Origin: Mesorhizobium comanense
GTDB taxonomy: Bacteria; Pseudomonadota; Alphaproteobacteria; Rhizobiales; Rhizobiaceae
Direction: 5' to 3'
DNA: 64,000 nucleotides
NCBI RefSeq assembly: GCF_005503535.1
Contig: NZ_SCNN01000004.1
Location: 248,001-312,000 of the forward strand
The notes under the pieces are model-generated. The model was not told where the DNA came from. It ran no database searches and saw only the letters and a list, made by a program, of their open reading frames with translations. Shown here piece after piece: positions 42,664 through 45,050 of the stretch (positions are counted from its first letter, which is position 1; the number at the start of each line of letters is the position of its first letter). The position numbers and the translations under genes were made by a program.

Positions 42664-42763
42664 GCACCCTGAGGCTTGCTGTGGCGAGACACGAGGGCAG
42701 CGAGATGCCAGGCTCTTTCTCAGCAGGGGCATCCAGCGGAATTATCGCCGGGCGCCCTGACAT

Positions 42764-42789
42764 CCTCCTGACAGACTGCTGTCAGGAGG
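42764..42789. promoter_or_regulatory. Operator palindrome 1 of the WYL island
   Basis: CCTCCTGACAG (42764-42774) is followed by ACTG and by its exact reverse complement CTGTCAGGAGG (42779-42789). It lies 48 bp upstream of the DUF1127 gene start. The same element recurs at 43673 before the next unit. The adjacent WYL regulator at 44331 is the likely binder; this is inferred from position. Confidence 0.75.
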
Positions 42790-42837
42790 GGTGTGCGATA
42801 GTGCCTTCATCAGAGAGAGCGAGAGAGGAGACAGGTC

Positions 42838-43005
42838 ATGAACGGTTTCACCATTCTGCGCGGCATGCAGCACTATGTCGGCAAGGTGCGCACCATGCGC
42901 AATGAAATCCGCACGCAGCGTTTCATGAACGCCCTGCCCGCGGATATCCGCAAGGATATCGGCTGGCCGGATATGTATGAAGAACGCCGTCACCACGGCA
43001 ATTGA
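42838..43005 (+). CDS. DUF1127-family small protein, 55 aa
   Basis: ATG 42838 is preceded by GAGAGGAGACAGGTC. The 55-aa basic peptide contains KVRTMRNEIRTQRFMNALPADIRKDIGWPD, the DUF1127 (YjiS-like) core: a helix with Arg/Asn, Leu, then an Asp-Ile/Gly-turn. DUF1127 peptides in alphaproteobacteria are small RNA-turnover or metabolism modulators in some species. Its start lies 48 bp after a palindromic operator. The DJ-1 gene follows 83 bp on. Confidence 0.75.
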   Translation: MNGFTILRGMQHYVGKVRTMRNEIRTQRFMNALPADIRKDIGWPDMYEERRHHGN

Positions 43006-43088
43006 GCATATTTTTCGACACCGATATTGGATGTAGCCGGACCAGCGCCCAGATAAATGGTCCGGCACGCGTGGGATGGAGCGAGCTT

Positions 43089-43679
43089 ATGCCCGGACAG
43101 AAGACGATCGGCTTCCTTTTCATCGAGGGCTTTGCCGACTGGGAGTACGGGCTCCTGGCGGCCTCGGCGACCGAATGGTTTGGCGCGCGCGCCGTCTCGC
43201 TGACGCCGGACGGCAAGCCTGTAAAAGGCATAAGCGGGTTCCGGCTGGCGCCCGACCGCTCGACCGGGGTCGACGAGAACAGCGACCTTGATGCGGTCGC
43301 CGTCATCGGATCGGACAGCTGGGCCGGCGATGCCGCGCCGGATGTGGCTGAACTGCTCGGCAGCGTTGCCTCGCGCGGCGGGGTGGTCGGCGGCATATGC
43401 GCGGGCACCCTGGCTTTGGCCCGGTCCGGCATGTTCGAAAAGGCCAGGCACACCAGCAACGGCCGCGAGTGGATCAATGGTCATGAAGCCGGCTATGCCG
43501 GCGACGGCAACTATCAGGACGTGGCGCACGCCGTGGCCGATGGCAAAATCGTCTCCGCGCCGGGATCGGCGCCGGGCACGTTCGCGCTCGCCTTCCTTGA
43601 GACGCTCTATCCCGAGAGAAGCGGCGATGTCGCCCATATGCGGACGCTCTTCGCCAAGGAGTATGCTGAAGCCTCCTGA
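43089..43679 (+). CDS. DJ-1/PfpI-family protein
   Basis: This 196-aa cytoplasmic protein has the glutamine amidotransferase-like fold. KTIGFLFIEGFADWEYG carries Glu19, and GGVVGGICAGTLALARSG has the nucleophile-elbow Cys104. The HTSNGREWI segment near 130 supplies the region after the elbow. Members act as glyoxalase/deglycase or chaperone-like stress proteins; the exact activity is unknown. The stop codon (43677-43679) lies inside palindrome 2. Confidence 0.85.
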   Translation: MPGQKTIGFLFIEGFADWEYGLLAASATEWFGARAVSLTPDGKPVKGISGFRLAPDRSTGVDENSDLDAVAVIGSDSWAGDAAPDVAELLGSVASRGGVVGGICAGTLALARSGMFEKARHTSNGREWINGHEAGYAGDGNYQDVAHAVADGKIVSAPGSAPGTFALAFLETLYPERSGDVAHMRTLFAKEYAEAS

Positions 43680-43696
43680 CAGAATGCTGTCAGGAG
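43673..43696. promoter_or_regulatory. Operator palindrome 2 of the WYL island
   Basis: CTCCTGACAG (43673-43682), spacer AATG, and CTGTCAGGAG (43687-43696). Its arms match palindrome 1 base for base. It lies 52 bp upstream of the next gene start (43749), against 48 bp for site 1. Both are followed by a similar box (TGC-A/G-AT-A/G-GTG). Confidence 0.75.
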
Positions 43697-43748
43697 CGGC
43701 ATGCAATGGTGACACAATGCGCATGGACGAGGGCCGAAGGGACGGTCG

Positions 43749-44156
43749 ATGAAAAGCTGGAACGACAGACTGAACACGCCAGGCATCAACGGCATCAAGC
43801 CGACGCCGCGCACGATGAGCGATGTCGTCGAGGGCCAGCCCATGCTGGTGCCGACGGCGCGCCAGGTCGACGACTTCGTCCGGTCGATCCCCGAAGGGGT
43901 CGAGATGGACGTTCGCGCGCTGCGCACGGCGCTGGCGATCGAACATGGCGCGGAAGTGACATGTCCCGTCACGATCGGCTATCATCTGCGGACCGTCGCC
44001 GAAGCCGCCCACGAGGATCTCGAGCGCGGTTTGTCGCTGGGCGACGTCGCGCCCTTCTGGCGCGTGCTGGACGCAAGGACGCCGACAACGGGCAAGCTGT
44101 CGTTCGGCGCGGAATTCGTCGCGGCGCAGCGCAAGCGTGAAGGACTGAAGCCATAA
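43749..44156 (+). CDS. Alkyltransferase-like (MGMT-fold) protein without active-site Cys motif
   Basis: This 135-aa protein resembles the DNA-binding domain of O6-alkylguanine transferases: FVRSIPEGVEMDVRALRTALAIEHG, then TCPVTIGYHLR, then APFWRVLDARTPTTGKLSFGAEFVAAQRKREGL. The catalytic PCHR tetrad is missing; the segment reads APFWRV. Alkyltransferase-like proteins bind damaged DNA without repair, so a damage-recognition role is possible. The likeness is by eye and moderate. Translation start ATG 43749 lies 52 bp after palindrome 2. Confidence 0.45.
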   Translation: MKSWNDRLNTPGINGIKPTPRTMSDVVEGQPMLVPTARQVDDFVRSIPEGVEMDVRALRTALAIEHGAEVTCPVTIGYHLRTVAEAAHEDLERGLSLGDVAPFWRVLDARTPTTGKLSFGAEFVAAQRKREGLKP

Positions 44157-44204
44157 TGCATGCCGCCCGGAAGCCGAACCGGTTCCGGGACCGCGGCATG
44201 CCCG

Positions 44205-44308
44205 AAGCAATTCCAGGAAAAACGGACCTCGGTTTTCCGCTCGGAATTGCATCGAAACGAGGAGGTGGAGCGGCCCGTCGTTTCTGTGAAACGGCACACC
44301 GCTCCGGA
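44205..44308. repeat. RIME-like double palindrome, copy E
   Basis: AGCAATTCCAGGAAAAACGG pairs with GCTCGGAATTGC. The second palindrome is GGAGCGGCCCGTC/GGCACACCGCTCC, more diverged than in copy A. It sits directly upstream of the WYL regulator start. Confidence 0.8.
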
Positions 44309-44330
44309 GTTAACGTCGGGAGACCATACG

Positions 44331-45050
44331 ATGCGACGCGCCGACAGGCTCTTCCAGATCGTGCAGCATCTGCGCGGTGGCCGTCTGGTCACCGCCCAGA
44401 AGCTCGGCACGTGGCTGGAGGTTTCCGAACGAACGATCTATCGCGACATAGCCGACCTGCAGTCGACCGGGGTGCCGATCGACGGCGAGGCTGGCGTTGG
44501 CTACATGATGAGGGAGGGTTTCGACCTTCCGCCACTGATGTTCACGCGTGACGAGATCGTGGCGCTGGTGGCTGGCGCGCGCATGGTGCGCGCCTTTGGC
44601 GGCGCCGCCATGGCAAGGGCCGCCGACGAGGCGCTGGTCAAGATCGGCGCCGTGTTGCCCGACACCGAAAAGGACCGCATAGCGCGCACCGAAATCCACA
44701 CGCCGATGTGGGTGGTCAGCGACGCCGCCCGCGAGGCGATCGACCTGATCGAACGCGCGGTCGAGAAACGCCAGGTGCTGACCATCGACTATTCGGACGA
44801 GGCCGGGCGCGGCACCGCGCGCGACATCAGGCCTCTCGGATTGTGGTTCTGGGGCAAGGTGTGGACACTGGTCGCCTGGTGCGAGATGCGCGACGACTTC
44901 CGCGCCTTCCGCATCGACCGCATCGCCTCGGTGGTGATCGCCGGCCGCATCTTCAAGCCCGAACGCGGCAAGCAACTCGCCGATTTCTATCGCGCCGTCG
45001 AGCGCAGCGAGGATTACGGCATGGCGCCGGATCGCGCGGCGCGGAACTGA
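44331..45050 (+). CDS. WYL-domain transcriptional regulator (YafY-like)
   Basis: This 239-aa protein has an N-terminal HTH_11 winged helix (about 1-60: ADRLFQIVQHLRGGRLVTAQKLGTWLEVSERTIYRDIADLQ) and a WYL ligand-binding domain (about 140-220: KRQVLTIDYSDEAG..., then DIRPLGLWFWGKVWTLVAWCEMRDDFRAFRIDRI). GGGAG precedes ATG 44331; the earlier frame start lies in RIME copy E. It probably controls the two palindrome-bearing units upstream. The ligand may be DNA-derived or a metabolite. A terminator follows. Confidence 0.88.
   Translation: MRRADRLFQIVQHLRGGRLVTAQKLGTWLEVSERTIYRDIADLQSTGVPIDGEAGVGYMMREGFDLPPLMFTRDEIVALVAGARMVRAFGGAAMARAADEALVKIGAVLPDTEKDRIARTEIHTPMWVVSDAAREAIDLIERAVEKRQVLTIDYSDEAGRGTARDIRPLGLWFWGKVWTLVAWCEMRDDFRAFRIDRIASVVIAGRIFKPERGKQLADFYRAVERSEDYGMAPDRAARN

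Follow-up and report, generated by a model that had tools for sequence, protein, structure and literature searches.

The window analysed here is a 64-kb stretch (64,000 nucleotides) of contig NZ_SCNN01000004.1 of Mesorhizobium comanense, and this report concerns an island within it (42764-45050), where two copies of a palindromic operator accompany four genes, the last of which encodes a WYL-domain transcription regulator. The order is operator 1, an open reading frame (ORF) of 55 amino acids (aa), a DJ-1/PfpI gene, operator 2, a 135-aa ORF and a gene for a helix-turn-helix (HTH)-WYL protein; the island is bordered, on the opposite strand, by genes of the glyoxalase/dioxygenase and TrcR families. 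Conservation was assessed in the 80 closest WYL loci (the top 80 among 193 relatives; 77 carry the name Mesorhizobium), to which counts out of 80 refer.

42757-42762, plus strand: putative additional half-site CTGACA, at an offset of exactly 11 bp upstream from operator 1's left arm
42764-42789, no strand: operator 1, CCTCCTGACAG-ACTG-CTGTCAGGAGG, with perfect 11-bp arms and a 4-bp spacer
42797-42802, plus strand: putative -10 element GATAGT, 8 bp past the 24-bp operator 1 (from the fixed-geometry analysis)
42838-43005, plus strand: 55-aa DUF1127-like ORF, present in 79 of the 80 loci (the contig is cut in the remaining one)
43089-43679, plus strand: DJ-1/PfpI-family gene (Pfam PF01965, 5.6e-17), present in 40 of the 80 loci
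43672-43697, no strand: operator 2, CCTCCTGACAG-AATG-CTGTCAGGAGC, with perfect 10-bp arms, a mismatched outermost pair and a 4-bp spacer
43705-43710, plus strand: putative -10 element AATGGT behind operator 2
43749-44156, plus strand: third gene, a conserved 135-aa protein of no identifiable family, with a match in 71 of the 80 loci
44207-44250, no strand: dispersed inverted repeat, GCAATTCC...GGAATTGC, in the 174-bp gap before the WYL gene
44331-45050, plus strand: HTH_11-WYL transcription regulator (PF08279, 4.2e-16; PF13280, 6.5e-18), present in 80 of the 80 loci

The preliminary description of the island had placed the two palindromes, with their arms and spacer, where they were found, at a nearly equal distance from the start codons; we measured 48 bp (to 42838) and 51 bp (to 43749) from the operator ends. 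Its assignments of the DJ-1 and WYL proteins were borne out by the Pfam matches above. The WYL protein (239 residues) consists of an N-terminal HTH and a WYL domain; its best relative in the PDB was PafBC (6sj9, 1.7e-9), and a residue comparison aligned the stretch R.DDFR.FR.DR of its WYL domain with arginines of PafB/PafC. The third gene had been called alkyltransferase-like, a guess by eye for which we found no support: no such (ATL/Ada) match appeared in Pfam, NCBIfam or PDB profiles, and neither Pfam, searched to E 0.5, nor NCBIfam, searched to 0.001, gave a match of any kind. A PDB profile search gave two weak matches to purine phosphorylases (0.051 and 0.96), and the AlphaFold model, built with 16 close sequences, was unusable (pLDDT, a per-residue confidence score, of 43); identity among 16 relatives was 81-94%. 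The 55-aa ORF was not matched by DUF1127 (PF06568) in Pfam even at E 0.5 and had a sub-threshold match to UBM (0.018), though it has a DIGW motif that could be aligned to DIG in a DUF1127-like protein, at 21% identity.

Only two matches to the palindrome, operators 1 and 2, were found in the window at up to three mismatches, and none in 100 dinucleotide shuffles of it (0 expected). The stop codon of the DJ-1 gene falls within operator 2. The palindrome lay upstream of the WYL gene in all 80 loci, and 78 of these islands had at least two such sites there. The association extended well beyond the genus. Among 297 genomes of the order, a WYL homologue (E<=1e-30) was present in 164 and an exact site in 54, and 53 of the latter had the homologue (Fisher p 7e-15 against 164/297 overall, relatedness being ignored); the sole exception, G259, is a genome that is 61% complete. 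Outside the genus, 59 exact sites were found in 46 genomes of the order, and at least 35 of them lay within 700 bp upstream of a WYL homologue: 33 by coordinates (19-699 bp) and 2 by inspection. The palindrome does not, then, occur at random positions unrelated to WYL genes, the outcome that would have told against the preliminary description.

More distant WYL homologues were searched within 800 bp upstream for the core CTGACA-N6-TGTCAG with at most one mismatch. It was found at 21/21 homologues with 51-68% identity, at 23/38 with 39-55% identity and at 17/21 outside the order; by chance, with uniform base composition, 0.04-0.07 loci per set would be expected, and the reversed pattern gave 0/80, with none in any of the three sets. 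Left out of this test were L135, which is cut, and L277 and L279, whose starts were not located and which both have a one-mismatch site. These results indicate that the palindromes are real, non-chance sites and are copies of an old operator whose occurrence follows that of the WYL regulator. Of the proteins considered, the WYL protein is the best-supported binder of the shared operator, as had been proposed; from the recurrence of the pair we infer, with strong support, that it binds the palindrome.

The genome search recommended in the preliminary description returned sites within the genus, in the order and outside it, with recurring gene families behind them. The genome of M. comanense itself had six places at up to three mismatches: two in the island, and four that precede uvrB, a fatty-acid desaturase gene, a VOC glyoxalase gene and the gene for a 151-aa protein, respectively. 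The suggestion that the island forms one regulon was incomplete: the regulon is wider (uvrB, desaturase, VOC and the 151-aa protein), and DJ-1, present in 40 of the 80 loci, is no constant member. All 119 sampled genomes of the genus contained sites at up to two mismatches, 1-8 per genome (reversed pattern: 0). When genes were assigned by their starts in 40 stretches from 15 of the genomes listed, the sites preceded uvrB (13), the desaturase/XRE pair (13), a 152-aa protein (3), VOC (2), EamA (2) and the WYL island (1; L227), and six were single or unclear (L215, L216, L218, L225, L230 and L237). Pfam confirmed uvrB in L203 and in the own-genome locus L005, and EamA in L208. The near-palindrome at L006 3478-3501 lies between the fatty-acid desaturase gene and a divergent XRE-type gene, the setting seen in 13 of the 40 stretches. 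A family of 151-158 aa with no Pfam match stands behind the operator in two distant families (L008 3064-3519 and L257 1560-2036), its homology being judged by eye; in L257, this homologue of the 151-aa Mesorhizobium protein is followed by an EamA-like gene.

Of the 17 loci with a site outside the order, 10 had a VOC/glyoxalase-family gene between the palindrome and WYL (all by Pfam); within the order, such a gene was present there in at least L200, L250 and L255 (Pfam) and L201 (by eye). Behind exact or one-mismatch sites, Pfam assigned GST (L300 and L246; second gene in L184), GFA (L256 and L259), YCII (L253; L248 below the cut-off), PNPOx-like proteins (L183 and L249), Polyketide_cyc2/SRPBCC (L184), EamA (L251), a thioesterase (L307), VOC (L312) and LysE (L311); in L303 and L304, a DUF1127 gene (PF06568 match) was divergent from WYL. 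UvrB followed the site in seven genomes outside the genus from four families (L186, L188, L189, L191, L194, L305 and L306; all Pfam-confirmed, L191 and L194 with one mismatch), and in five families overall. Two weaker sites, before a methyladenine glycosylase gene (L187; 2 mismatches, Pfam 6.5e-75) and an EgtB-like gene (L192; 2 mismatches, by eye), were not counted as evidence. The target set suggests the removal of reactive electrophiles and carbonyls together with the excision of the resulting DNA adducts.

The position of the operator relative to the promoter was analysed in two sets. Of 35 promoters picked to span genes and families (some of them related), 25 had T at +9 past the 24-bp palindrome and 29 had A at +10; both were present in 21/35. 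The opposite side, where divergent promoters are included, gave 9/35, and no position in any of 3,001 random-shift sets had a count above 8. The unselected set comprised 103 unique exact core sites read in both directions, or 206 sides (L126-L147, L183-L202, L243-L335 and four own-genome loci). TA at +9 was found on 72 of these sides (next-highest position, 18) and on at least one side of 64/103 sites; four divergent pairs (L243, L246, L256 and L259) had it on both. At a 17-bp spacing, the -35 position falls at the centre of the palindrome, and 66 of the 72 TA-bearing sides matched TTGACA there at no more than one of six positions; with spacers of 16 and 18 bp, this held for 50/72 each (best, 3 and 4 matches). 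Since the -35 element is missing, the palindrome occupies its place. An extra half-site like that beside operator 1 recurred at an offset of 11 bp outside the palindrome on 23/206 sides (any other offset, 6 or fewer). A palindromic operator at -35 with a fixed distance to the -10 element, the arrangement of homodimeric WYL activators of the DriD/SiwR type, was found here, with the exception of 13/13 uvrB promoters and of the 14/35 chosen promoters that lack TA at +9.

These observations suggest the following mechanism. A dimer of the WYL protein (44331-45050) would bind CTSCTGACA-N6-TGTCAGSAG, which would fill the -35 region. The centre of the operator would lie where sigma region 4 seeks the -35 element, and 8 bp would separate its edge from an extended -10 element (TGnTA). 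RNA polymerase would then need the WYL regulator, as for DriD, since the operator stands in place of the -35 element and 8 bp before the -10 element. The predicted targets comprise the operon of the regulator itself and a small regulon that differs between families: VOC glyoxalases, DJ-1, GST, GFA, PNPOx-like flavoproteins, EamA exporters, DUF1127 proteins and UvrB. Activation by the WYL regulator is likely on the promoter geometry, and the full reading, in which a bound dimer takes over the -35 contacts and thereby activates transcription, is in our judgement probable, with some room for error. The WYL domain may be a sensor of single-stranded DNA, in analogy to DriD, PafBC and SiwR.

Several observations weigh against this mechanism. 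The 14 chosen promoters without TA at +9 include both promoters of the window, where A at +10 is kept and +9 is G (operator 1) or A (operator 2) instead of T; the desaturase promoter lacks TA at +9 and has not kept A at +10 either. No convincing gene was found behind the sites in L215, L230, L244, L252, L308 and L310 or behind one of the two in L218, and many sites lie between divergent genes, so that targets were assigned by nearness or recurrence and some are uncertain. The motif was missing at 15 of the 38 located remote homologues (39-55% identity), and therefore not every WYL paralogue uses the palindrome. All 13 uvrB promoters lacked TA at +9 (A at +10 in 3) and had a CATATT/CATATA box 40-70 nucleotides past the palindrome, and therefore the control of uvrB must differ: either the WYL protein acts there from a more distant upstream position or transcription has a second start. 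This box stands just before the uvrB start codon in 13/13 cases (e.g., L005) and is possibly a leaderless housekeeping promoter. The LexA box is GTTC-N7-GTTC. No exact box was found at the 13 uvrB promoters, to which the search was confined, and one-mismatch boxes occurred at four (past the palindrome in L188, L189 and L191; upstream of it in L207); LexA/SOS control of uvrB was rejected on these grounds.

A repressor could occupy the same position as an activator. The WYL protein might bind the operator to block RNA polymerase and be freed by a ligand, like CapW of phage defence, a weak PDB match of the present protein (9e-4); WYL repressors of anti-phage systems are described (PMC10693628; see also PMC9122588 and PMC9122589). 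The operator does overlap the promoter core, and autorepression would also fit the five exact copies located 19-20 bp before a WYL start codon. Promoters without a -35 element and with a single fixed -10 distance nevertheless suit an activator that replaces -35 recognition, and the top PDB match is the activator PafBC; repression is, in our view, unlikely. Alternatively, another protein, either a WYL paralogue or an unrelated regulator, might bind the palindrome, with WYL merely one of its targets. Several WYL homologues per genome are common (three at E<=1e-30 in the own genome), and sites with a 5-bp spacer occur at homologue loci. However, this WYL clade alone stays beside the motif from family to family, and also outside the order, while the other targets change, and an exact site was present in 28/39 non-genus genomes with a strong orthologue versus 18/250 others, which makes a different binder distinctly improbable. 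In L282, L283 and L291, the WYL homologues have the same half-sites 5 bp apart instead of 6, perhaps a spacing variant of paralogues. That the palindromes are dispersed repeats or terminators without a regulatory role, as perfect inverted repeats mainly outside genes and with a real dispersed repeat nearby might be, was ruled out almost completely by their low copy number (1-8 per genome), their placement ahead of the start codons of recurring gene families, and a core kept across families with the -10 element at a fixed distance.

The true dispersed repeat is the one at 44207-44250, whose pattern had 31 exact matches in the own genome and, at up to two mismatches, 45 forward and 25 reverse matches versus 1 and 1 in the control. 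It occupies the 174-bp gap that the preliminary description had regarded as a promoter region of the WYL gene itself, a proposal that the gap lengths did not sustain. In 67 loci where the match to the third gene reached its C-terminus, the gap to WYL was 15-21 bp in 19, 52-75 bp in 32, 122-132 bp in 15 and 175 bp in one, and a repeat of this type was found in the last alone (L109). Where no match to the third gene was found (9 of 80 loci), the core of the palindrome begins approximately 105 bp before WYL. Because of these gap lengths and this placement of the core, transcription of WYL from operator 2 appears more likely than from a promoter of its own. In two families, a distance of 19-20 bp separates the palindrome from some WYL start codons, which makes a leaderless WYL mRNA likely in these cases.

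The regulator predicted to act through this operator is most likely an uncharacterised WYL activator of an electrophile/DNA-adduct regulon, and across many Proteobacteria its clade probably switches on detoxification genes, plus a DNA repair gene in several families. In the open-licence literature, we found no paper with a TGACA-N6-TGTCA motif or this WYL regulon, so the earlier statement that no described system matches was fair for the regulon; the design, on the other hand, closely resembles SiwR, DriD and PafBC. WYL regulators are abundant, and few have a known operator or regulon; a whole clade now has a predicted one, along with a motif for searches, the promoter rule of operator, 8 bp and TA, and a set of targets indicative of a stress. 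Replacement of the -35 element, as in PafBC and DriD, may be a general mode of WYL activators, as these promoters suggest, and this idea is directly testable in an easily grown plant symbiont.

SiwR of Mycobacterium smegmatis is a homodimeric HTH-WYL activator encoded beside its targets and linked to genotoxic and oxidative stress (PMC10693628). Its palindrome likewise lies upstream of the -10 element, and glyoxalase-like (pfam18029) neighbours occur in some Actinobacteria; on the other hand, that palindrome is a 19-bp imperfect one, and the known SiwR target is one operon of DinB/YfiT-family genes (PMC10693628). The same source leaves open whether SiwR has further targets or uses sigma adaptation. 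The adaptive response of Ada/Cada2 was excluded, its motif (GCAA plus CGG; PMC10957082) being different from the palindrome.

DriD of Caulobacter crescentus has an operator, ATACGAC-N7-GTCGTAT, centred on -35, and shares with the present system a fixed distance to a weak -10 element, a poor -35 element, a bidirectional promoter and DNA-damage genes (PMC12340889, a preprint). Its targets (didA, bapE, recJ and dnaG), operator sequence and spacer differ (PMC12340889). Since the operator here is CTCCTGACA-N6-TGTCAGGAG, the window WYL protein was excluded as a DriD orthologue. In the geometry comparison, the didA and driD-divergent promoters had G at +7 and A at +10; bapE was left out, its best consensus match having 7/14 mismatches. 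DriD also has at least 327 residues versus 239, and its PDB match was weak (8tp8, E 0.0066).

The promoter consensus of PafBC is TTGTCRGTG-N8-TAnnnT, which resembles the TGTCAGGAG-N8-TA found here, and PafBC, the best PDB match of the island's WYL protein, is a WYL activator with -35 replacement, as is predicted here. PafBC is organised as two WYL proteins encoded in one operon or fused; the island has one WYL gene, and therefore PafBC was excluded. In mycobacteria, PafBC acts at a -26 motif, where sigma adaptation takes the place of -35 recognition, and it is reported not to have bound promoter DNA alone (PMC11804915); it is a heterodimer with more than 150 targets (PMC10693628). We tentatively propose, with the balance of probability somewhat against every part holding, a Proteobacteria-wide WYL regulon that would be distinct from SOS, DriD and PafBC, couple electrophile/carbonyl detoxification to nucleotide excision repair of the adducts that these compounds form on DNA, and use symmetric -35-replacing operators, bidirectional at divergent pairs, with some WYL mRNA probably leaderless. 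As predicted from its promoters, the system works like SiwR, DriD and PafBC, its nearest known systems, and its predicted regulon is unusually broad and testable.

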